A DNA stretch of 48,382 nucleotides from Microcaldota archaeon (GTDB taxonomy: Archaea; Micrarchaeota; Micrarchaeia; Micrarchaeales; CABMGC01), in assembly GCA_021852055.1 (NCBI GenBank), contig JAJZOD010000001.1, positions 1 to 48,382 on the forward strand, written 5' to 3'. A model generated the notes under the pieces. The model did no database searches and was not told the DNA's origin. It saw only the letters and a program-made list of their open reading frames with translations. The first letter of the stretch is position 1. Every line of letters starts with the position of its first letter. The position numbers and the translations under genes were made by a program. Shown in pieces: positions 3,028-12,978 of the stretch.

Positions 3028-4032
3028 TCATCTTCTGCCGCTCCATGCCCTTCTATGGGCTCTCATAGCATCCATCGAACTTCCCTCCTCTTCCCGTATG
3101 CTCTTTCCTGTGTAATGTATAAATACGTCTTCCAGGCTTGGCTTGTGAAGCGATACAGAATCAACTTTTACATTGTGTCTTTCCGCTATTGCCATTAGCG
3201 CAGGAATGCGCTTCTCGCCTTCCTCTACCGTAAGATCAAGAGTGCTATCATGGCTTGACATTGAACGAACCCATTTGGTTGATTTGAGCGAGGCGTGCAG
3301 CTTTTCGGTATCGCCGTTTGTACGGAGGGATATGACATCGCCGCCAAGCTTGTCTTTGAGCGCCTTGGGGGTATTCAATGCGACAAGCTTGCCATGATCC
3401 ACTATCGCAACGCGATTGCACAGATAGTCAGCCTCTTCGATATAGTGTGTTGTGAGAATCAGTGTCACCTTACTAGTCTCATTCAGCTTTTTGATATACT
3501 CCCAGATATGGCGCCTGGTTTGGGGATCGAGGCCAACAGTTGGCTCGTCGAGAAACAATACCTTCGGCTCATGAATCAATCCACGACCTATCTCAAGCCT
3601 TCTCTTCATTCCGCCGGAATAGAACTTTACAAGAGTATCTGCCTTATCCTCAAGCTCTACCAGTTTCAAGACCTCGCTTATCTTGCTGTTGCGCTGCTGC
3701 TTGCTTATATTGTACAATATTGCATGAAACTCCAGGTTTTCCCTACCTGTAAGCTCATCGTCGAGTGATGGATCCTGGAACACTATGCCGATACTCTTCC
3801 TGACATTGTTAGGCTCTTTCTTGATGTCATAGCCCGCAACTATAGCGCCGCCGGAGGTAGGCTTCAGAAGAGTGGTAAGCATTTTTATTGTTGTAGTCTT
3901 GCCTGCGCCGTTTGGGCCAAGCAGTCCAAATATCTCCCCTTCTGTAACGTGAAAAGATATGCCTGCAACTGCTTTGAGGCTGCCGAACTCTTTGCTGAGC
4001 TCCTCTACTTTTATCATGTCCATGATTACCAT
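3028..4032 (-). CDS. ABC transporter ATP-binding protein (DrrA family)
   Basis: The 334-residue ATPase has Walker A GPNGAGKTT, the ABC signature YSGGMKRRLEIGR, Walker B VLFLDEPTVGLD and the switch histidine in LILTTHY. The C-terminal domain after about residue 225 and the motif PSLEDVFIHYTG are typical of the daunorubicin-resistance DrrA group. It energises the ABC-2 permease encoded next. Start codons at 4032 and 4023 are both possible; the second gives MDMIKVEE. Expression is probably controlled by the PadR-like gene 12 bp upstream in the same operon. Confidence 0.9.
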   Translation of the reverse strand: MVIMDMIKVEELSKEFGSLKAVAGISFHVTEGEIFGLLGPNGAGKTTTIKMLTTLLKPTSGGAIVAGYDIKKEPNNVRKSIGIVFQDPSLDDELTGRENLEFHAILYNISKQQRNSKISEVLKLVELEDKADTLVKFYSGGMKRRLEIGRGLIHEPKVLFLDEPTVGLDPQTRRHIWEYIKKLNETSKVTLILTTHYIEEADYLCNRVAIVDHGKLVALNTPKALKDKLGGDVISLRTNGDTEKLHASLKSTKWVRSMSSHDSTLDLTVEEGEKRIPALMAIAERHNVKVDSVSLHKPSLEDVFIHYTGKSIREEEGSSMDAMRAHRRAWSGRR

Positions 4033-4044
4033 CTTGCATAGTAT

Positions 4045-4491
4045 CTATTTAAGCTTTGACAGCCTCTGCACTACTTTTTGTATTCTCGTCTTATATTCGG
4101 AGAACTCCTTCCCATCGCTCTGTGCAAGCTCCTCGAGGTAAGATACGCTGCCTTCAAGCTTTGTTATTATGTCATCTGTGTCGTTCAATGGTCCTGCCTC
4201 CTTGCGATATGATGCAGTTAGTTCGTACTTCCCTGATGTATTCTTCTTTACTATGTTCTCGTTTGTCAGCTGCTCCAGTAGAGGGTATATAGAACCTGGA
4301 GAAGGACGCCACCAGCCCCTGCTCATCTCCTGTATCGAGTCCATTATCTCTATGCCATTCTTCGGACCAGACTCAAGCACGCGTAGCACCGTAGGACGTA
4401 TCCATCCTCTTTGACCAAAGTTCATACGCCACTGCTCTGAGTGATGCCAGCCCTGACTTCTCCTGCCAAATTCGCTTTCGTGCCCATGCAT
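4045..4491 (-). CDS. PadR-family transcriptional regulator
   Basis: The winged-helix domain shows the PadR hallmarks: VLRVLESGPKNGIEIMDSI, then WWRPSPGSIYPLLEQL and a wing GKYELT. A C-terminal helical dimerisation segment (about residues 110-148) follows. I start it at the ATG at 4491, preceded by GTGAT. An upstream in-frame TTG at 4512 would lie inside the inverted-repeat operator. As first gene of the padR-ABC operon it most likely represses its own operon until a drug-like ligand binds, as known for PadR/LmrR proteins. Confidence 0.85.
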   Translation of the reverse strand: MHGHESEFGRRSQGWHHSEQWRMNFGQRGWIRPTVLRVLESGPKNGIEIMDSIQEMSRGWWRPSPGSIYPLLEQLTNENIVKKNTSGKYELTASYRKEAGPLNDTDDIITKLEGSVSYLEELAQSDGKEFSEYKTRIQKVVQRLSKLK

Positions 4492-4511
4492 TAAATCACT
4501 TTGTATATACA

Positions 4512-4541
4512 ATATCGTGTATTCAATATTTAGTATACGAT
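4512..4541 (-). promoter_or_regulatory. PadR operator and operon promoter
   Basis: An imperfect inverted repeat, TATCGTGTA (4512-4520) and TATACGATA (4533-4541), matches at 8 of 9 positions. It lies between a TATA-like TTTTTATATTT on the minus strand (about 4541-4552) and the ATG at 4491. This is the expected position for autorepression. The link to the PadR protein is inferred from adjacency. Confidence 0.5.
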
Positions 4542-4608
4542 AAATATAAAAAGATATCTGAGAGACACAGCAATCAACGTAAATTGCTTTTTTGAATTTC
4601 TATGTACT

Positions 4609-4675
4609 TTTTTGTGCAATTAGCTTTCATCCCTTCGCTGAAGCATGTGGGATTTCCCACTATGCACGGTTAAAC
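4609..4675. repeat. Solo IS200/IS605-like end (hairpin repeat, copy 2)
   Basis: It carries GCTTTCATCCC and a long hairpin (GCATGTGGGA at 4643-4652 against TCCCAC-T-ATGC to 4665), then ACGGTTAAAC. The tail from GGATTTCCC to GGTTAAAC matches 22925-22950 at 24 of 26 positions by eye. It sits between the PadR promoter and the 3' end of folK, so it could also act as a transcription terminator. Confidence 0.5.
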
Positions 4676-4699
4676 CGCGCCATTTTGCCAACTGTGTTA

Positions 4700-5206
4700 T
4701 TACCTGCTCGGTTTTAGTCTTTTAGCATGTTTTTTGATAATCGTATGCTTATTAACAGGCAGATTCTTGTATATACTTACAATGGACGTATTTGAAGATG
4801 GATGGTGAAGCCCTCTGTTTAAATCGATAAGAGGCAGTAGAACGAAGTCTCTTTCGATAATTCTTGGATGGGGTATATCCAATCTTTTGCTGTGTAGAGA
4901 CAATTTGCCATAGAATAATATGTCTATGTCTATTTCCCTTGGCCCCCATCTGCGCCTGAATTTCCTGCCGCACTGCCTTTCAGCATTCTTAACAAACTGA
5001 AGCAACTCTTCAGGAGTGAGGTCGGTCCTTCCTTTCACAGCAGCGTTTATAAAATTTCTTTGCTTTGAATATCCGAGAGGCCTTGTTTCATACAACGCAG
5101 ACAGCTGTATGCTGTTTATTTTACTTTTGAGAATGTGCACAGCTTCGGCTATGTGCACCTCCCTGTTTCCGACATTAGAACCAAGCGCAAGATATACTAC
5201 AGCCAT
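4700..5206 (-). CDS. folK: HPPK, 6-hydroxymethyl-7,8-dihydropterin pyrophosphokinase
   Basis: The protein transfers pyrophosphate from ATP to 6-hydroxymethyl-dihydropterin, the step before dihydropteroate synthase. Family landmarks are LALGSNVGNR at the N-terminus, the Arg-rich loop RKFRRRWGPREIDIDILFYG with the metal-binding D-x-D, and PHPRIIERDFVLLPL. I start at the ATG at 5206 (MAVVYLALGSN), which follows the folP stop by one base and has GTGGGT upstream. A GTG at 5215 would overlap folP. The gene is cotranscribed with folP. Confidence 0.9.
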   Translation of the reverse strand: MAVVYLALGSNVGNREVHIAEAVHILKSKINSIQLSALYETRPLGYSKQRNFINAAVKGRTDLTPEELLQFVKNAERQCGRKFRRRWGPREIDIDILFYGKLSLHSKRLDIPHPRIIERDFVLLPLIDLNRGLHHPSSNTSIVSIYKNLPVNKHTIIKKHAKRLKPSR

Positions 5207-5207
5207 T

Positions 5208-6107
5208 TTACCCACGGATTTGAAGGAGATTGTCTATTACTGCAGTAAATTTCTTGGTCTGCAGGACGTCGTGGGTGCGGATTATGTTCGCGCCGTTGTA
5301 TACTGCCATAGATGTTTCTGCAAGAGCAGCCTCGAGACGGTCCGACTCGCTCGGCAGTGCTTTCAACTGCAATGCGCTTTTTAGAACGCTGCCAAGATGC
5401 CTCTTCCTTGAAACGCCGACAACCAAGGGCCTTCCAAGAGATGAAAAAAGGTCTAATTTGCGCAGCAGCCGGAGGTTGTCCCTTGTAGACTTTCCAAAGC
5501 CTATTCCTGGATCAATAAGAAGCTGATTTTCGTAAACGCCTTCGGATTTAGCAACATTTATCTGTGCTCGAAAATACGTCATAACATCCTTTACAACATC
5601 TTTATAGTATGGATTGGACTGCATTGTGCGAGGCACCCCTTTTATGTGGTACATTATTACAGGACACCTGAAATCTTTCACAACAACAGTGATTTTCCTG
5701 TCAAGCTCAAAGCCGGAGAGCGAGTTGACGATATCTGCCCCGTTTTCAAGGGCCTGCCTTGCAACATCAGCCTTATAGGTGTCTATTGATATGAAGAAGT
5801 CGTGTCCCAGATCTTCGCGTATGCGCCTGATCACAGGCACAACCCTGTTGGCTTCTGATGTTTGGGATATAGGAAAGGAGCCAGGTCGCGTTGATTCGCC
5901 GCCGATATCTATTATGTCTGCGCCTTCCTTGAGTAGCTGCTCGGCCTTTTTTACAGCAAAAGATGGCCGGAGGTATAGACCGCCGTCAGAAAAGGAGTCA
6001 GGAGTTATGTTGAGTATTCCCATTATGGCAGTTTTCCTGCCCAGATGCAGCGTTTTGCCATTATATCTGATCTCGAATTGTTTCCTTTCCGGGATTCTCA
6101 CTGGCAT
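5208..6107 (-). CDS. folP: Dihydropteroate synthase
   Basis: A 299-residue TIM-barrel enzyme that condenses p-aminobenzoate with the pterin pyrophosphate made by FolK. Visible signatures are MGILNITPDSFSDGG, GADIIDIGGESTRPGS, the barrel strands DIVNSLSGF and LLIDPGIGFGK, and the late VVGVSRKRHLG. It is first in a two-gene folP-folK operon. A TATA-like GTTATAAAATACC lies about 25 bp before the ATG, so the mRNA may be leaderless. A bacterial-type FolP/FolK pair is not universal in archaea and may have been acquired by transfer. Confidence 0.92.
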   Translation of the reverse strand: MPVRIPERKQFEIRYNGKTLHLGRKTAIMGILNITPDSFSDGGLYLRPSFAVKKAEQLLKEGADIIDIGGESTRPGSFPISQTSEANRVVPVIRRIREDLGHDFFISIDTYKADVARQALENGADIVNSLSGFELDRKITVVVKDFRCPVIMYHIKGVPRTMQSNPYYKDVVKDVMTYFRAQINVAKSEGVYENQLLIDPGIGFGKSTRDNLRLLRKLDLFSSLGRPLVVGVSRKRHLGSVLKSALQLKALPSESDRLEAALAETSMAVYNGANIIRTHDVLQTKKFTAVIDNLLQIRG

Positions 6108-6125
6108 GATTAAATGTCTGACTGG

Positions 6126-6138
6126 GGTATTTTATAAC
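6126..6138 (-). promoter_or_regulatory. folP promoter (TATA box)
   Basis: On the minus strand this reads GTTATAAAATACC, centred about 25 bp upstream of the folP ATG at 6107. Archaeal transcription starts about 25 bp from the TATA centre, so a leaderless transcript is predicted. Confidence 0.5.
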
Positions 6139-6304
6139 TTCCTGTCTTCTGGAGCAAATTCACGATGCAGACTTCATGTGTAGCCTGATGCAGCGCACTT
6201 TCCACCTAAATGATGAACTTTTCTTACTTAACTTCGTCACTTAGAGTAGCGAAATCTCTAGCCTTCTGACTTAAATCAATTCTCCAAATCGACTTTTACC
6301 AGCG

Positions 6305-6364
6305 TAGATTGAAGAAAAAGATAAAAGAAGGGAAGAAGATAGTAACCCCTGCGAAAAAGTGGGG
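6305..6364 (+). repeat. 60-bp perfect direct repeat, left copy
   Basis: Bases 6305-6364 are identical to 7722-7781, with an offset of 1417 bp and no mismatch found by eye. The two copies bracket the truncated reverse transcriptase and its neighbour. In frame the copy reads RLKKKIKEGKKIVTPAKKWG, similar to the short tails described at 7527-8082. The frame here continues to a stop at 6375-6377. Confidence 0.85.
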
Positions 6365-6397
6365 GGATTATATATAACTCAATAATTTTGCACTCCT

Positions 6398-6739
6398 CTA
6401 ACACGTTTTAGGTTTTGATTCAGATAACAAATCATTATACTCGTTCATAAGCATATTTCTAAGATTATATGTGTTGGTAAACTCAGCATAGGCAAACCAA
6501 CCCTCGAAATTTGTAACTGCTTCTTCTTTTTTCATTTTGCTATTATTACACAGTTTTCTAAACTTCTCAAAGCGTTTGGCTATTCTTCTTGCATTACTTC
6601 TCTTGAGAAGTCTATGGTAGTGGAACACTCTGAAACCAAGTAGAGTAATGCCTTCTTCTAAAGCCACAATCCGAATTTTGTCAGGATGAGGCTCTACTTT
6701 CAATGAATCTTTGAGGAATTGATCTATGCTACTTCCCAT
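6398..6739 (-). pseudogene. Truncated reverse transcriptase, C-terminal part (DGR type)
   Basis: The 113 residues match only the thumb/C-terminal region of retroelement reverse transcriptases. FLKDSLKVEPHPDKIRI is followed by GITLLGFRVFHYHRLLKRSN, the typical 'G-x-x-F-L-G-[FY]-x-x-[FY]' tail of diversity-generating retroelement (DGR) enzymes, and later NFEGWFAYAEFTNTYNLR. The palm domain with the catalytic YxDD box is missing, so the product cannot be an active polymerase. The gene lies 77 bp downstream of a probable DGR variable protein. The missing 5' part and the template repeat were apparently deleted between them. Confidence 0.75.
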
Positions 6740-6816
6740 GTTTCAAGGGTGTTTTCCTATCTCTATGTTGGTGGCAATGGTTATCCACCTTAACCTAGGA
6801 AGAAAAAGATGGTATT

Positions 6817-7464
6817 TTACTCTTTTATTCTTAACGCTTCTACCAGCATCCTCGTCTTAGGAAGGCTCTCAGAGCCAAAGGCCTCTGCAACCTTGAATAG
6901 TTCTTGAGCAGAATCCCTTTGAAGTGTAATCAGTTGTTTGGTTGTAACGCCAGCAAGTTTAACGCCTTCCTCCGTTGGAGATACCTCAATTTCCGGCGTG
7001 ACCACTTCGTGGCCAGCTCGAACCCCAACCACCACCAGAGCAGCATCGTCAGGCGAATTGTCCGCATCGAGGACGTAACGCCCCTCGCTCCTACGGGCAT
7101 TGTCGTTCGCAAGCACGTCGAGCGACAACGGTTGTGAGCCTTTGTAAACACAAACGGTCTTCTCTATATCTCCTTTTCCTTGTGTAAGCTCTCCTTTCTC
7201 ATTGAATGTATAGTATCCTGACGGCACCTGAGAGCCTTTTCCATCGAGATAGAACCATGTTTTCTTAAGCTGCTCCTTAAGTTTTGGATTCTGATCTAAC
7301 ATAACTATTGCTTCTTGATAAGTAAGTGGCCTGAGTCCATTCCGTTTAAGTAATGCCATTGAGTTTCTGCGATTTGCTTCTGTGTTAGCGAAAAATATGC
7401 CTGTTTGACTAACCTCTCTAGGCTCTACTTGTACTGTTTTTTTAGCGCTTATTCTAAATGCCAT
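6817..7464 (-). CDS. Probable DGR variable (target) protein, 215 residues
   Basis: The N-terminal half is hydrophilic (WFYLDGKGSQVPSGYYTF, then GSQPLSLDVL). It is followed by an unusually GC-rich stretch (about 7000-7135) encoding ARRSEGRYVLDADNSPDD and VVVGVRAGHEV. The order, a variable protein followed by a reverse transcriptase on the same strand, is that of a DGR cassette. The GC-rich block before VVVGVR is where I would place the variable region. A C-type-lectin or Ig-like fold cannot be confirmed by eye, and no template repeat is visible nearby, so the sequence is now presumably frozen. No signal peptide is evident. The assignment rests on context and recalled similarity to DPANN cassettes. 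Confidence 0.5.
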   Translation of the reverse strand: MAFRISAKKTVQVEPREVSQTGIFFANTEANRRNSMALLKRNGLRPLTYQEAIVMLDQNPKLKEQLKKTWFYLDGKGSQVPSGYYTFNEKGELTQGKGDIEKTVCVYKGSQPLSLDVLANDNARRSEGRYVLDADNSPDDAALVVVGVRAGHEVVTPEIEVSPTEEGVKLAGVTTKQLITLQRDSAQELFKVAEAFGSESLPKTRMLVEALRIKE

Positions 7465-7526
7465 TTTACCACGGTGTAATTGCGTCTTGGATGATATAAA
7501 AAGGTAGCGGTTAGTCGTGCAAAAGT

Positions 7527-7688
7527 TTATAAAGGGTTATTTAAGAGTCTCTTTCTAGTCTTTTTCTTCAGTATTATCTTCTTACCCTCTTTCACTTTTT
7601 TTCTCAGATAACGCATATTCCTCTTAGAAATTACTATTGCCTTTGCCTGCTTTGGCGTTAGTTTCTTGATAACATGGCAACGAAAACG
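7527..7688 (-). pseudogene. Cas1-C-terminus-like tail remnant A
   Basis: An open frame of about 53 codons without a good start, bounded upstream by a stop at 7689-7691. It encodes KLTPKQAKAIVISKRN followed by MRYLRKKVKEGKKI and a basic end. The pattern 'x-G/V-I-S-K-x-x-[LM]-x-Y-x-[KR]-K-x-x-x-G-K' resembles the helix-turn-helix-like tail of archaeal Cas1 proteins (LGFSKGTLHYMKK type). Only the tail is present, so it is at best a gene fragment. The identification is tentative. Confidence 0.35.
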
Positions 7689-7692
7689 CTAA

Positions 7693-7791
7693 CGCATCGG
7701 ATTATCTAAAATGCAGATGTTTAGATTGAAGAAAAAGATAAAAGAAGGGAAGAAGATAGTAACCCCTGCGAAAAAGTGGGGAGTCCGCTAA
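7693..7791 (+). pseudogene. Cas1-C-terminus-like tail remnant B (includes right 60-bp repeat)
   Basis: Between an in-frame stop at 7690-7692 and a stop at 7789-7791 the frame reads RIGLSKMQMFRLKKKIKEGK and ends in a basic stretch. It shares I-x-[SN]-K-x5-[RQ]-x4-KEGK with the fragments at 7527-7688 and 7921-8082. It overlaps the right copy of the 60-bp direct repeat (7722-7781). There is no start or upstream domain, so this is a relic. Confidence 0.3.
7722..7781 (+). repeat. 60-bp perfect direct repeat, right copy
   Basis: Identical over 60 bases to 6305-6364. Together the copies flank the DGR remnant (6398-7464). Identity is lost immediately on the right (position 7782 is A against G at 6365), so the edge is sharp. 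The repeat could be a recombination scar or a duplicated gene tail. Confidence 0.85.
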
Positions 7792-7920
7792 TCGCCTGTA
7801 AAATAAGTGTTGTGGAATGTATATCACTTACTATATTTCGTTATACAATTCTGTGTGCTTATTGTACTGATTATTATCTACTTATCAAGCTTCAATTTAA
7901 CATGCCAGAACTCTAGATAA

Positions 7921-8082
7921 ATTGAGGATAACATATATGTTCTTAGTAAGGTGCTAAGCTTAATGCCACAAGACCGCAAGAGGCTAGGCATAAATAAGTC
8001 AACTCTGTGGTATATGCAGAATCATATAAAAGAAGGAAAGAGAATCAAGGTTTATGGTAAGGTTATAGGTAAAATCAAGTAG
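7921..8082 (+). pseudogene. Cas1-C-terminus-like tail remnant C
   Basis: The frame opens after a stop at 7918-7920 and ends at 8080-8082. It encodes RKRLGINKSTLWYMQNHIKE followed by GKRIKVYGKVIGKIK. LGxxKSTLWYM closely recalls the C-terminal LGFSKGTLHYMKK of type I-B Cas1 proteins. A possible internal ATG would give only about 39 residues. The body of the protein is absent. It directly precedes, and nearly overlaps, the truncated restriction-enzyme gene. Confidence 0.4.
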
Positions 8083-8090
8083 TGTTGTTT

Positions 8091-8279
8091 ATGGATAAAG
8101 AGCAAATGAAGAGTGAAATAACAAAGCTCATCGAGAAGTATAATTGTGAGAAGGGCAAAAGGTACAACGAAGAGGCTACGAAAAACGATTTTATACTGCC
8201 TTTATTCAAGATACTGGGCTGGGATGTAGAAGATTCAAACGAGGTATCGAAAGAAGAGAACGCACCAGTTAGAACTTAA
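8091..8279 (+). pseudogene. Truncated restriction enzyme N-terminus (type I/IIG-like)
   Basis: The 62 residues from the ATG at 8091 (MDKEQMKSEITKLIEKY) run into YNEEATKNDFILPLFKILGW, then DVEDSNEVSKEE. This is the N-terminal signature of HsdR_N-like or Eco57I-type restriction-modification proteins (Y-x-E-x-x-T-x-x-D-F-I-x-P-L-x-x-x-L-G-W). Full proteins continue for many hundreds of residues with nuclease and methylase motifs. Here the frame stops six residues after the match, so this is a broken gene fragment. Confidence 0.7.
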
Positions 8280-8284
8280 TTACA

Positions 8285-8557
8285 TCAACAAACCTTTTTA
8301 TCAGAATCTTGGGTTACTGATTGTCCACTGGCTTTGCTTGATAGTCCCAAGTCACGTACGGTGGGGAGCCTGCCAGTTGCCTTTTTTGAATATATGGTTA
8401 TGCCGTCTTTCATCACTTCGAATGATCCTGATTGACCTGGAATAAGCTTTAAAGAAAATTCTTCATTGTGAGCATTGCTTTCCAAAACCTTTTGGGCCAT
8501 TTCTATAGCAACTGGGAGATAGCAGCCAACACAGAATCGCATTTCGTATTTCATCAA
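8285..8557 (-). CDS. SelW/Rdx-family thioredoxin-like redox protein
   Basis: The 90-residue protein has the family's N-terminal CxxC (MRFCVGCYLPVAIEMAQKVL). The C-terminal strand-helix FEVMKDGITIYSKKATGRLP is the Rdx signature 'F-E-V-x-x-[ND]-G-x-x-[IV]-x-S-K'. Cysteine is used in place of selenocysteine. Rdx proteins are small thioredoxin-fold redox or metal-handling proteins. It is divergent from an HxlR regulator across a 69-bp operator region and was probably gained with it. The extended tail after residue 70 ends in Cys. Confidence 0.75.
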   Translation of the reverse strand: MMKYEMRFCVGCYLPVAIEMAQKVLESNAHNEEFSLKLIPGQSGSFEVMKDGITIYSKKATGRLPTVRDLGLSSKASGQSVTQDSDKKVC

Positions 8558-8560
8558 TTC

Positions 8561-8621
8561 ACCTTTATATAAATACTACAAAAGATAAAGTATTTATACT
8601 ACAATGTTCAAACTATTGTAG
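8561..8621. promoter_or_regulatory. Divergent promoter with paired HxlR operators
   Basis: Two inverted repeats lie between the SelW-like and HxlR genes: AAATACT/AGTATTT (8571-8577 and 8589-8595) and CTACAAT/ATTGTAG (8599-8605 and 8615-8621). TACTACA is repeated at 8574-8580 and 8597-8603. A TATA-like TTTATATAAAT (about 8562-8573) can serve the leftward gene. The repeats would let one regulator control both genes. Confidence 0.5.
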
Positions 8622-8626
8622 ATACT

Positions 8627-9016
8627 ATGAAGAATCAAAGTAGTGAAGCTAAGACTTATTGTTTTTGTGCTCTCGATGGTACCATGAATCTTTTAGGAAA
8701 GAAGTGGGTCCTTTTCACGATAAATGTGATTGGGAATCATGGAACTGTTAGGTTTACTGATCTTTCTAGAGAACTGCAAGGTATTTCGCAGTCAACGCTC
8801 GCTTGGATACTTAAAAACCTCGAGCATGTAGGCATTGTTGAGAGGAAATCATTTGCAGAAATACCTCCAAGGGTCGAGTATTCGCTAACAAGAAAGGGCA
8901 GCGAGCTGCGAAAAGCGTTAGTACCCCTGCTTTTCTGGGCTGCAAAGCAAGATGATTACTCAAAGAAGGTTGAGAAGTGTGATCAAAACCAGTACGTCAG
9001 AGTCAATATAATTTAA
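8627..9016 (+). CDS. HxlR-family winged-helix regulator
   Basis: The 129-residue protein has the HxlR domain. LLGKKWVLFTINVIGNHG is followed by VRFTDLSRELQGISQSTLAW, then LKNLEHVGIVERK and PPRVEYSLTRKGSEL. The N-terminal Cys residues (CFCA at about 13-16) match the redox- or electrophile-sensing cysteine that many HxlR proteins carry. It is divergent from a CxxC redox protein and 11 bp upstream of a phosphatase/ArsC-like gene, so a redox or metalloid response is plausible. Confidence 0.85.
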   Translation: MKNQSSEAKTYCFCALDGTMNLLGKKWVLFTINVIGNHGTVRFTDLSRELQGISQSTLAWILKNLEHVGIVERKSFAEIPPRVEYSLTRKGSELRKALVPLLFWAAKQDDYSKKVEKCDQNQYVRVNII

Positions 9017-9027
9017 GATTAGCTATT

Positions 9028-9435
9028 GTGGGTTATACGGTGTCAAATATACTTTTTGTTTGCAAAGAAAACAAATACAGAAGCCAGATAGCAGAAGTAT
9101 TATTCAATAGTATGACGGCAAAACATCATGCCACAAGTGCGTCAGGCAAAGAGCCAGCTAAAGAAGTAAGTAAAGATGCGATATCATTGTTAAAAATAAT
9201 ATATGATATAGACATGAACCAGCAGAAACCCAAAAGGCTTACTAAATCATTGCTTGATAACGCCGACAAGATAATAATATTATGCGATCCTAAAGACTGC
9301 GTCCTTATACCTAAAAGTTATGCCACAGAACATTGGGATATACCAAAAATGGAAACTTTGGACGAAGGAAGTAAAATTAAGGCGTTAGGCAAGCTTCGTC
9401 AAAAAATAGCAGAATTAATAGTCGAGTTGGATTGA
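9028..9435 (+). CDS. Low-molecular-weight phosphatase / arsenate reductase-like protein
   Basis: The N-terminal strand and P-loop read ILFVCKENKYRSQIAE, a C-x5-R-S active site as in low-molecular-weight tyrosine phosphatases and thioredoxin-linked ArsC. The typical loop is CxGNxxRS; here it is CKENKYRS. The general-acid region is replaced by EHWDIPKM with an Asp in W-D-I-P. Start is GTG at 9028, with another GTG at 9040. It follows the HxlR gene by 11 bp and is probably cotranscribed. Phosphatase versus arsenate reductase cannot be decided from sequence alone. Confidence 0.75.
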   Translation: MGYTVSNILFVCKENKYRSQIAEVLFNSMTAKHHATSASGKEPAKEVSKDAISLLKIIYDIDMNQQKPKRLTKSLLDNADKIIILCDPKDCVLIPKSYATEHWDIPKMETLDEGSKIKALGKLRQKIAELIVELD

Positions 9436-9534
9436 TAAGAGACGCAACACCTCTCTTTCTCAGCCTCTCCATGCTAAAACTATGTTAGAGAAGGGGGACA
9501 TTTGAACGAGTTATATATAACCCCACATAAAGGA

Positions 9535-9607
9535 TGGGGAGTTCGAGATTTGAACTCGAGTCTTCAGGTCCCAAACCTGAAAGCCTACCAAGCTAGCCTA
9601 ACTCCCC
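9535..9607 (-). tRNA. tRNA-Pro (anticodon UGG)
   Basis: On the minus strand the acceptor arms GGGGAGT (from 9607) and ACTCCCC pair fully. The anticodon stem TCAGG/CCTGA encloses the loop TTTGGGA, giving anticodon TGG. The T arm is TCGAG-TTCAAAT-CTCGA. The discriminator is A and CCA is not encoded. There is no intron; length is 73 nt. Confidence 0.93.
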
Positions 9608-9633
9608 GTGATAAACATATAATTGCAGTTGAA

Positions 9634-9646
9634 GGTTTTTATATGG
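9634..9646 (-). promoter_or_regulatory. tRNA-Pro promoter
   Basis: On the minus strand this reads CCATATAAAAACC, a strong archaeal BRE/TATA combination. It is about 30 bp upstream of the tRNA 5' end at 9607. Confidence 0.6.
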
Positions 9647-9724
9647 GTGCTATGCCTTTTTAACTTGGACAGTCTGTGCTCAGGTTTCTTATAATTCAAT
9701 TAGCAGTATTCAGAAGAAAATATC

Positions 9725-10168
9725 TCACTGCTTCGGCTTCCTGCCTGGCGGCTTCGGCATCTTTAGATAAGAATATGCCTTGCTCAGCATCTCCTGGTTT
9801 ATGTCAGTGTCGAACTTCAGGCTCTGCAGCGTTCTGCGTATCAGGTAGGTATTTGCAATCTCCTTTAGCTCCTCCTTGGATTTTATTGCCTTGTCCACTG
9901 TTGCCTTAGCACCCGGAGTTCCGAGTTCCTGTATGGCAGCTGCAAGATCGTTGTAGCGCTTCGCCTTGCCTTTTGTTATGGATTCTACATACGCGTCAAG
10001 AACGGCAAGATCTATTCCGAGAAATTCGAATGCCTTCTTGTCGAGTGTCTGGCGTATTGATGCAAGTGCAAAGGCCACTTCTTCTGGTTTTGTATCCTCC
10101 TGCACCGATGCCTTCTTTATGACTACCCAATCCCTGTATTTCGCTGAAAACTCGATAGAATCTGACAT
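9725..10168 (-). CDS. Conserved archaeal-type hypothetical protein (possibly DUF2666-like)
   Basis: A 147-residue soluble helical protein starting MSDSIEFSAKYRDWVVIKK. The opening 'I-x-F-x-A-K-Y-x-D-W' is reminiscent of the archaeal DUF2666 family, but I cannot verify this. The C-terminus is basic and proline-rich (KMPKPPGRKPKQ), which suggests nucleic-acid or ribosome association. It lies 22 bp after the winged-helix gene at 10191-10406 and not far from eL40, so all three may be one operon. No enzymatic motif is visible. Confidence 0.6.
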   Translation of the reverse strand: MSDSIEFSAKYRDWVVIKKASVQEDTKPEEVAFALASIRQTLDKKAFEFLGIDLAVLDAYVESITKGKAKRYNDLAAAIQELGTPGAKATVDKAIKSKEELKEIANTYLIRRTLQSLKFDTDINQEMLSKAYSYLKMPKPPGRKPKQ

Positions 10169-10190
10169 GCAAAATACCTTTTATCTGATT

Positions 10191-10406
10191 TTATCCTATA
10201 ACGTAATAGCCAGATGCCTTCTCGCGCACAACGCGTTTTATGGCGCCCTTCTGCACCAGCGATATGAGCGTATTTGTAACAATGCCTTTCGGCCTGTTGC
10301 ACTTCTTTGCTATGTCATCTGCAGTCTTCTTCTTCTCCTCGTTGGTCGCACCGATATCCTTCATAGCCTGTACGACCAGGCTTTCTATAGGCGTAAATTC
10401 TACCAT
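10191..10406 (-). CDS. Small winged-helix DNA-binding protein
   Basis: The 71-residue protein is a single winged-helix domain. A first helix FTPIESLVVQAMKDIG is followed by KKTADDIAKKCNRPKGIVTN as helix-turn-helix, LISLVQKGAIKRV and a wing ending in SGYYVIG. Stand-alone domains of this size are common archaeal chromatin or regulatory proteins. It sits between eL40 (77 bp upstream) and a hypothetical gene in the same direction. Confidence 0.7.
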   Translation of the reverse strand: MVEFTPIESLVVQAMKDIGATNEEKKKTADDIAKKCNRPKGIVTNTLISLVQKGAIKRVVREKASGYYVIG

Positions 10407-10482
10407 TCTATTACCTTTTGTTTGTTCTTTATACGTTTTTGACTTCTAAGCATTGATTTGTTTACTCGGCAGTATTTCTTAT

Positions 10483-10635
10483 CTATTTCTTTACGCGGCT
10501 CTCTTTGCGCTTTACTCTCAGATATATGCTGCCGCATTTTCTGCACTTCTTTACGCCTGCGCGGTTTCTGGCCTTGCACCTTCTGCATACCCATATTTGC
10601 GTCAGAGCCTCATCTGCCAATGCAAACTTTCCCAT
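10483..10635 (-). CDS. rpl40e: Ribosomal protein eL40 (L40e)
   Basis: A 50-residue gene beginning MGKFALADEALTQIWVCRRC and continuing with KARNRAGVKKCRKCG before a short basic tail (LRVKRKESRVKK). The two CxxC pairs (WVCRRC and KKCRKC) form the zinc ribbon of eL40, and the size fits archaeal L40e. The ATG at 10635 and TAG at 10483-10485 delimit it. A longer overlapping frame in this stretch is a shadow. A minus-strand TATA-like GAATAAATATC lies upstream near 10670. Confidence 0.92.
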   Translation of the reverse strand: MGKFALADEALTQIWVCRRCKARNRAGVKKCRKCGSIYLRVKRKESRVKK

Positions 10636-10702
10636 TAGGATCACGATTGTACAACATATTGCACAGAAAGATATTTATTCTGTTGTTTTTAGCGCCTGAG
10701 CA

Positions 10703-10737
10703 GTCCTGCCCTAAGGAACAGGGCATTATTTCAGGAC
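10703..10737 (+). other. Two-part hairpin in the eL40-cdc48 divergent gap
   Basis: GTCCT/AGGAC (10703-10707 and 10733-10737) and GCCCT/AGGGC (10708-10712 and 10720-10724) form a stem with an asymmetric internal loop on the 3' side. It lies upstream of the cdc48 TATA box and outside any gene. It may be a small structured RNA or a regulatory palindrome; nothing further supports either. Confidence 0.25.
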
Positions 10738-10763
10738 ATTACCGCAGGCATTTTCATCGCAAG

Positions 10764-10772
10764 TTATATATA
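10764..10772 (+). promoter_or_regulatory. cdc48 operon promoter
   Basis: TTATATATA lies about 55-60 bp upstream of the cdc48 ATG, with a GGTG ribosome-binding motif seven bases before the ATG. It should drive cdc48 and possibly eS6 and aIF2-gamma. Confidence 0.55.
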
Positions 10773-10824
10773 AGTTTTACCGACAAATAGTAGATGCAGA
10801 TTACATTTAGTTTTTGGTGCACTT

Positions 10825-12978
10825 ATGACTAACAGCATTGAGCTTACTGTTGCGGATGCGCTTGTTACGGATTCAGGGCGCAGCATAGCTAGGATAGACA
10901 GCAAGTCAAGAAAGCTCCTTGACGTTGTTTCAGGGGACATTATAGAGATAAAAGGCAAGATAAAAAGCACAGCTGCCGTTGTTTGGCAGTCCCATCCGAG
11001 CGATGAAGGGCTTGGATTTGTGCGCATAGATGGGTACCTGCGCCAGAACTTGGGCGTAGGCATAGGAGACAAGATATTTGCATCAAAGGCGGAGGTAAAA
11101 GACGCTGAGAAGGTCGTGCTTGCGCCTCCGCCTAATCAGCGTGCGCCGCTCACGTCCGACTTTGTAGGCTATGCCAAGAAGAGGCTTGAAGGCAAACCCA
11201 TAGCAAAGGGGGATTCAATACCGATACCTATGTTCGGCTTTGTTTTCAACTTTTTGGTAGTGCAGGTTGTACCGCACGGTATTACAAAAATCACAAGCAA
11301 TACAAATCTGCTTATAAAGGATGAGCCTGTTTCTGAATCGCTGGTCAGGATAGGCGATGTCCATTATGAGGACATAGGAGGCCTTGATGATGCAAAGCAG
11401 AAGATACGCGAAATGGTAGAGCTGCCTATAAGATATCCGGAGCTGTTTGAGAGGCTTGGCATAGACCCACCGAAGGGCGTGCTTCTTTACGGGCCGCCAG
11501 GAACCGGAAAGACGCTTCTGGCGAAGGCAGTTGCAAATGAGAGCGAAGCGCATTTTATAACTATATCTGGACCGGAGCTCGTAAGCAAGTTCGTAGGAGA
11601 AAGCGAGGAGAAGCTGCGAGAGATATTCAAGCAGGCGAACGAGAAGGCTCCGACAATAATATTCATGGACGAGATAGATGCCATAGCACCTAAGCGCGAA
11701 GAGGCAACAAATGAGGTTGAGAGGCGCATGGTATCGCAGCTGCTGACATTGATGGACGGCATGCCTCCGAGAGGCCAGGTGATAATACTAGCAGCAACAA
11801 ACAGGCCAGATGCCATAGACCAGGCTTTAAGGAGACCCGGGCGCTTTGACCGTGAGATAGAGATAGGGGTGCCAAACAGGAATGACAGAAAGGTCATACT
11901 TCAGATACATACTAGGAACATGCCTCTTGCAAAAGACGTAAGCATAGAGGAGCTTGCAAACATTACACACGGGTACACAGGCGCAGATTTGAATGCGTTA
12001 GTAAGGGAGGCGGCTATGGCTACCCTCAGAGGAATACTGCCGGATATAGTTGGCAAGCCAAACATACCCACGGACATACTTACCAATTTGTCGGTCAGCA
12101 GGGAAGACTTCATGGAGGCCATGAGAAACATACAGCCTAGCGCATTGCGCGAGGTTTTTGTTGAGAGGCCTAATGTACATTGGACGGACATAGGCGATCT
12201 TGAGAAGGTGAAGGAGGAGCTGCGCGAAGCAGTTGAACTGCCGCTTAAGAAACCGGAGGCGTTCGAGAAGATGGGCATACGCCCAATACGCGGTGTCCTG
12301 CTTGTAGGAGCCCCTGGTACGGGAAAAACAATGCTTGCGCGCGCAGTTGCAACAGAGCGCGAATCCAACTTCATATCAATTAAGGGCCCCGAAGTGCTTA
12401 GCAAATGGGTAGGCGAGAGCGAGAAAACCGTGCGCGAGATATTCAGGAAGGCAAGGCTTGCGGCACCGTGCATAATATTTATAGACGAGATAGATGCCAT
12501 AGCGCATTCAAGGGAAGGCGGCGATGATTCGCGTGTAACTGAACGGGTGGTCGATACGCTGCTTACGGAGATGGATGGATTGCAGGAGCTCAAGAACGTA
12601 GTTGTCATAGGCGCTACCAACAAGCCTGAATATGTAGATCCGGCACTTCTCCGCCCCGGGCGCTTCGACAAGATAGTAGACATACCGATGCCTGGTGCAG
12701 AAGCCAGGCTTGAGATCCTCAAGGTGCATACGCGCAAGATGCCGCTTGACAAGGATGTTGTGCTTGAAGACCTTGCAAACGTTGCTGAAAATTACACCGG
12801 AGCAGAGATAGAAAATATATGCCGCGAAGCAGGAATGAACGCCATAAGGTCAAAGAGAGATGTTGTAAAGAAAGAGGATTTCACAAAGGCATTCAGGGAG
12901 GTAAGGCCTGCAGTGCCGAAGGAGGTTGCTGAGCGCATAAGCAGGTTCAAGGATGAACCTGAGAGCATGTACAGGTAG
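10825..12978 (+). CDS. CDC48/VCP-type AAA+ ATPase
   Basis: A 717-residue protein with an N-terminal double-psi barrel and CDC48_2 region (1-165) and two AAA+ modules. D1 has Walker A GPPGTGKT (223-230) and Walker B IIFMDEIDAI. D2 has GAPGTGKT (495-502) and IIFIDEIDAI. The D2 P-loop has Ala in place of the common first Pro. The hexamer unfolds or extracts proteins for degradation. The C-terminus (ESMYR) lacks the aromatic HbYX proteasome-docking motif. The gene precedes eS6 and aIF2-gamma on the same strand. Confidence 0.95.
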   Translation: MTNSIELTVADALVTDSGRSIARIDSKSRKLLDVVSGDIIEIKGKIKSTAAVVWQSHPSDEGLGFVRIDGYLRQNLGVGIGDKIFASKAEVKDAEKVVLAPPPNQRAPLTSDFVGYAKKRLEGKPIAKGDSIPIPMFGFVFNFLVVQVVPHGITKITSNTNLLIKDEPVSESLVRIGDVHYEDIGGLDDAKQKIREMVELPIRYPELFERLGIDPPKGVLLYGPPGTGKTLLAKAVANESEAHFITISGPELVSKFVGESEEKLREIFKQANEKAPTIIFMDEIDAIAPKREEATNEVERRMVSQLLTLMDGMPPRGQVIILAATNRPDAIDQALRRPGRFDREIEIGVPNRNDRKVILQIHTRNMPLAKDVSIEELANITHGYTGADLNALVREAAMATLRGILPDIVGKPNIPTDILTNLSVSREDFMEAMRNIQPSALREVFVERPNVHWTDIGDLEKVKEELREAVELPLKKPEAFEKMGIRPIRGVLLVGAPGTGKTMLARAVATERESNFISIKGPEVLSKWVGESEKTVREIFRKARLAAPCIIFIDEIDAIAHSREGGDDSRVTERVVDTLLTEMDGLQELKNVVVIGATNKPEYVDPALLRPGRFDKIVDIPMPGAEARLEILKVHTRKMPLDKDVVLEDLANVAENYTGAEIENICREAGMNAIRSKRDVVKKEDFTKAFREVRPAVPKEVAERISRFKDEPESMYR

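Follow-up and report, generated by a model that had tools for sequence, protein, structure and literature searches.

Does an archaeal retroelement that has lost the means of rewriting its target protein leave that protein behind, still readable as the last variant it wrote? The question is raised by a locus in the window analysed here, a stretch of 48,382 nucleotides that makes up nearly all of contig C9 (49,457 bases) of a Micrarchaeota MAG (1.02 Mb, 14 contigs, 90% complete). The original prediction, made from sequence alone, described an ORF for a probable 215-residue variable protein (VP) of a diversity-generating retroelement (DGR), followed by an ORF for the last 113 residues of a reverse transcriptase (RT), and proposed that a deletion had frozen the VP. 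Our analysis makes it very likely (roughly 0.92) that the cassette is a former Micrarchaeota DGR from which an internal deletion took out the template repeat (TR) together with the RT core, the VP being kept.

Anatomy of the cassette and of the deletion junction

The locus can be read against relatives recovered through the RT family, which are mostly Candidatus Micrarchaeota MAGs. Twelve of these related genomes hold complete DGRs, with RT, TR and variable region (VR), and in their 13 TR/VR pairs 210 of 213 VR mismatches lie at template adenines, so that RT, TR, VR and adenine-directed substitution, as required of a DGR, are all found in the relatives. The cassette order is VP-TR-RT in G040, G054, G036, G047, G066, G093, G106, G127 and others, with about 220 bp between VP and TR in G093. 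Homologues of the window VP (6817..7464, minus strand) adjoin RTs in G093, G106, G040 and G066, the G093 and G106 proteins, both from complete cassettes, sharing 70.7% and 62% amino acid identity with it. Because the VPs of these four complete cassettes are homologous to it, the window protein is a DGR target.

Aligned to G093, the window cassette forms two colinear arms. The left arm, comprising the sequence upstream of the VP, the VP itself and 49 bp of spacer, matches at 77% over 776 columns (E 1.6e-173), and the right arm, which runs from just after the YVDD box of the RT onward, at 75% over 328 columns (E 1.9e-58); arms of such length and with such E values exclude chance as the source of the colinearity. 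The first 49 bases past the VP stop (6768..6816, minus strand) are the remaining piece of the VP-TR spacer, in continuous homology with that of G093, and RT homology restarts directly beside them, in a C-terminal RT remnant at 6398..6767 (minus strand). The alignment places the deletion junction at about 6767..6768, with about 1.03 kb missing relative to G093: the rest of the spacer, the TR, and the RT from its start through YVDD. Small indels at the start of the remnant shift its frame; its ORF is limited to 6398-6739 (minus strand, 113 residues), which leaves 77 bp between the two ORFs. An alternative in which this gap held a frameshifted YVDD remnant (VDNHCHQHRDRK) was dropped, since the G093 alignment identifies 6768-6816 as spacer.

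The RT tail is 73% identical in amino acids to the G093 RT, and its top PHROG is a reverse transcriptase (5.5e-19), a phage RT family. Against solved structures it finds first 8ub7, annotated 'Reverse transcriptase' and which we take to be part of the Bordetella phage DGR complex, at 1.2e-5, with a group II maturase at 0.35; the RT profile scores 2e-33 against 8ub7 and 7.5e-21 against a group II RT. A group II intron RT or maturase identity was rejected, as 8ub7 scores better with both the profile and the window tail. The catalytic YxDD expected of a DGR is lacking, YVDD having been deleted and only the C-terminal part of the RT being left, and no A-biased repeat pair exists in window positions 4001-11000, so a template near the target is lacking as well. 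With a DGR-type RT remnant but no YVDD, the cassette is a DGR derivative and not a functional DGR. Relative to G093, the RT tail has a dN of 0.11 at saturated dS, which points to long constraint before a recent deletion; this recency is inferred from the conservation that the tail still shows.

In the reading we favour, the ancestral cassette would have been arranged like that of the related G093, with the VP (a C-type lectin with its VR) followed by the TR and then the RT. A single internal deletion of about 1.03 kb would have brought the VP-TR spacer up against the RT gene immediately past the YVDD box; template and catalytic core would have gone with it, the RT 3' end would have stayed, and the VP would display the last variant written by adenine mutagenesis. 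That a single event was responsible is likewise an inference. Most of what had been predicted held: the two ORFs and the 77 bp between them are as described, neither a YxDD nor a template repeat lies between VP and RT tail, the tail is of DGR type, and a deletion that froze the VP is supported by the two-arm alignment and its gap. Complete cassettes with a homologous VP, which the prediction called for as a check, were found in the four genomes named above. The two outcomes that would have refuted it, VP homologues that never neighbour DGR RTs and an RT tail closer to group II introns, were not met.

The cassette is flanked by two copies of a perfect 60-bp direct repeat, at 6305..6364 and 7722..7781 (both plus strand), which the original prediction had not noted and which do not coincide with the deletion junction. 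One frame of the repeat reads RLKKKIKEGKKIVTPAKKWG, resembling the C-terminus of a protein beside the DGR of G040 (L052:5738-6208, minus strand), and a related stretch, at window positions 7584-7752, recurs at C3:49837-50006. A tRNA-Pro gene lies at 9516-9609, 2 kb from the VP, and the same tRNA-Pro adjoins a distant VP of the congener G002 (L047, G002:C4, 4956-5048); it could be a tRNA-linked integration hot spot. Between the two, at 8082-8279, a 65-residue ORF matches the start of the type I restriction HsdR N-domain (PF04313, 4.5e-6) and is likely to be a truncated remnant.

The variable protein and its fate

The VR, 101 bp at 7031..7131 (minus strand), is defined by its ungapped alignment to the G093 TR. 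Over these 101 bp, 13 of 27 template adenines are changed, compared with 7 of 74 other bases (p=6e-5), and the adenine-biased VR of a DGR is thereby present when judged against the G093 template. The VR had been expected at about 7000-7135, which proved correct to within a few tens of bases, and the prediction's second check, whether differences fall at template adenines, was answered positively. Divergence from G093 at non-adenine positions is 9.5% in the VR, below the 24% of the N-terminal part of the VP, the 17% of its C-terminal part and the 26% of the RT tail, a pattern suggesting that a well-conserved template was used to rewrite the VR once the two lineages had separated. The corresponding dN/dS values against G093 are 0.14 for the N-terminal part of the VP, 0.34 for the C-terminal part and 2.3 for the VR. 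The VP is open and, as the value of 0.14 indicates, under purifying selection; that it is still used is our inference.

No Pfam or NCBIfam family was found for the window VP. Its AlphaFold2 model (pLDDT 85) has a predicted C-type lectin domain at residues 16-154, followed by C-terminal helices. The leading Foldseek matches of the model are C-type lectins with weak scores (best E 4e-3), and in VIA-align C-type lectin domains dominate over residues 16-154, with Z up to 8.8. The fold is therefore a prediction by the model, resting on structural matches that are each weak and agree with one another, and on these terms the cassette also has the C-type lectin target protein of a DGR. AvpA and Mtd are not among the leading matches of either search. 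The VR lies at the C-terminal end of the predicted lectin domain, which is also where known DGR targets carry it. Searching viral contigs and phage records with the VP returned no related sequence, and the RT search and tract pattern search of the viral contigs found nothing related either; RTs in phage records were rejected as close kin, being only remote (about 31% identity or less).

Elsewhere in its own genome, 90% complete, no RVT_1 match was found and, at BLAST sensitivity, no template other than the VR itself and a relic of 63 bp. This orphan TR relic (G000:C7:49734-49796, L110) is 78% identical to the G093 TR and has neither VP nor RT beside it. It covers only the 3' part of the TR and differs from the window VR at many non-adenine positions, and is thus not the template of that VR. 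The search for a template or a trans-acting RT, also called for in the original prediction, accordingly yielded only this unusable relic. A second VP-like lectin domain on the same contig (C7:104085-104513) is fused C-terminally to an NHL-like repeat protein (L034:4132-5538, plus strand; G000:C7, about 103131-104537).

When compared with the templates at hand, neither the C7 paralogue nor the RT-less VPs of G016, G007, G033, G002 and G003 show adenine bias; this would be expected after long decay, and it neither supports nor contradicts our reading. Among 60 relatives, a VP is found in 23 and RVT_1 in 7. Five genomes in which no RT was found, G011 (L004), G031 (L005), G009 (L007), G010 (L008) and G046 (L013), keep an adenine fingerprint against the templates of other species, and frozen or remotely served VPs therefore look common. 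In the window's own genus, the RTs of G004 (L067) and G005 (L065) are broken, with a damaged N-terminus, a stop after the tract described below, and a premature end. Within the genus the deletion cannot be polarised: the search turned up no sister species carrying this cassette in this position, the neighbouring gene folP being without a match in the six congeners.

Since neither an RT nor a template was found in the genome, the VP is likely to be frozen; because the genome is a 90%-complete MAG, however, an RT or template on the missing DNA cannot be excluded. The better of two rival explanations, which we consider unlikely, takes this possibility further: an RT and a template on the unassembled 10% would still diversify the VP in trans, and the RT stump would be a decayed second copy. 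In its favour are the incomplete genome, the TR-like relic on C7, which shows DGR parts occupying separate places in the genome, and the lower divergence of the VR than of the rest of the VP at non-adenine sites. Against it, the assembly has no RT, the relic is only a partial TR that did not serve as the template of the VR, and the congeners G004 and G005 likewise have broken RTs. The other rival, an assembly artefact (a chimera or collapsed variants) masking a whole cassette in the living cell, is not ruled out by reads and could appeal to the MAG origin, to the two identical 60-bp repeats around the cassette and to related assemblies that break at the RT tract (L166), but it is very unlikely, as the junction does not lie at a repeat, the RT remnant is also frameshifted beside it and other broken RTs exist in the same genus.

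A simple-sequence tract in the reverse transcriptases of relatives

The description of the window RT as gutted undersells the wider picture, in which the RT of live relatives is usually frame-broken too, by a seemingly reversible tract. Most of these RTs are split into two ORFs at one site, in the RT2-RT3 linker between the FANQ block and LKADI. A profile-based survey of 50 distinct RT linkers, from which a duplicate row (L065) and an unrelated RT (L088) were excluded, found a simple-sequence tract at this site in 24 of 31 Micrarchaeota DGR RTs and in one RT labelled Woesearchaeota (L011, L028, L030, L031, L065, L067, L091, L094-L097, L113-L115, L117, L119, L123, L126, L166, L168, L174-L176, L178 and L181). 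Eighteen of the 25 tracts are poly-G (8-11), one is poly-C (9) and six are (GA)n. Across the linker the reading frame is offset by 0 in 4 of them, by 1 in 12 and by 2 in 9, leaving 21 of 25 out of frame, and one of the four that are in frame by arithmetic, G005, still meets a stop. By comparison, all 25 tract-free linkers (7 Micrarchaeota, 18 from other lineages) are in frame (Fisher p=4e-10). Within the genus g31, the tract is present in G040, G054 and G127, whereas G125 and G133 have an interrupted tract or none and an open frame.

In 594 kb of retrieved Micrarchaeota DNA, in which some loci overlap, 11 of 11 distinct long tracts (G or C of at least 8, GA or TC of at least 6 units) sit in the RT2-RT3 linker, and the genomes of G040, G047, G054, G066, G085, G106 and G127 contain no G/C run of at least 9 other than the RT tract. 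Other rare poly-G tracts were seen in methyltransferase-like ORFs, identified by eye only, at L215 (G008), L223 (G007) and L213 (G036); methyltransferase-like genes are often phase-variable. Tract length differs between the near relatives G004 (G10) and G005 (G8), which are identical at 573 of 600 downstream positions, and one assembly (L166) holds G9 and G11 versions around a single scaffold gap. This evidence of length variation rests on few cases, in assemblies without reads. The RTs of the relatives show two features of a phase-variable contingency locus, a repeat within the ORF that sets the frame and a repeat length that varies among close relatives.

Where the assembly has the RT out of frame, in eight cassettes, 129 of 130 TR/VR mismatches fall at adenine, as against 81 of 83 with open RTs. 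Because these pairs are as clean as those of open RTs, the RT must have worked recently, and the conservation of both halves of the out-of-frame RTs, in which dN lies far below a dS that is high or saturated, means that they are not simply pseudogenes. A bolder reading, and on this evidence the best one, which we regard as likely, is that the Micrarchaeota DGR RT is phase-variable: slipped-strand mispairing at the poly-G, poly-C or (GA)n tract would switch lectin hypermutation on and off, making it rare and reversible. The window would then be one endpoint, in which switch and enzyme were deleted and the last variant was retained. The switching itself is inferred, without reads or culture, and against it stand the small number of length-variant pairs and an in-frame share among tract RTs slightly below one third (p=0.046).

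A rival explanation, in our judgement improbable, is that full-length RT is made whatever the tract length, by transcriptional slippage on the tract or by programmed ribosomal frameshifting there, so that there is no switch. It would account for 21 of 25 tract RTs being out of frame with clean VR/TR pairs and both halves conserved, and the slight deficit of in-frame copies also favours it. However, both offsets exist, 12 copies needing one correction and 9 the other, and the (GA)n repeat found in six of the tracts is not known to be slippery; the need for both corrections and the (GA)n tracts weigh against programmed frameshifting. Four copies moreover keep the frame through the linker, and tracts of different length occur in near relatives and in a single assembly.

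Comparison with known systems

RT-inactivated DGRs and RT-less VP remnants are already known, and the tract in the RTs of the relatives is the more surprising result. DGRs with an inactivated RT and intact VR and TR have been described (Schillinger et al. 2012, PMC3521204). They resemble the window in having a variable protein with an adenine fingerprint beside a broken RT gene, and differ from it in that nonsense mutations, insertion elements or frameshifts broke the RT and the TR is present, whereas TR and catalytic core are both deleted here. In a cyanobacterial case (PMC7517822), a VP paralogue with a remnant of TR-VR homology and without a neighbouring RT was similarly kept after loss of the diversification components; the window is archaeal, however, retains an RT stump, and has an intact relative, G093, that gives the breakpoints. 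It is a fossil in which a targeted-mutation system was lost and its product retained, and several stages of such decay can be seen in one archaeal lineage.

Complete DGRs of DPANN archaea were surveyed in PMC8144416, which cites Paul et al. 2017. The relatives of the window share with them the VP-TR-RT order and adenine mutagenesis, but most Micrarchaeota RTs differ in carrying a frame-breaking tract between RT2 and RT3. The literature that we searched, judged partly by titles and the beginnings of abstracts, contained no paper that connects DGRs with phase variation of the RT, whether slipped-strand or homopolymer.

In bacterial poly-G contingency loci, for example those of Campylobacter, length-variable G8-G11 tracts within an ORF toggle its frame. 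The RT tract of the relatives is like these in lying within an ORF, in differing in length between relatives and in its effect on the frame. It is unlike them in that the switched gene would be a DGR mutator, in that the single conserved site may hold poly-G, poly-C or (GA)n, and in being archaeal. If the tract does act as a switch, a contingency locus would control a DGR, bringing together two classic diversity mechanisms so far considered apart, and this could explain how a dedicated mutator is carried without constantly rewriting the binding protein. Existing metagenome reads offer a test of the idea, through the tract lengths and VR variants present in the same samples.
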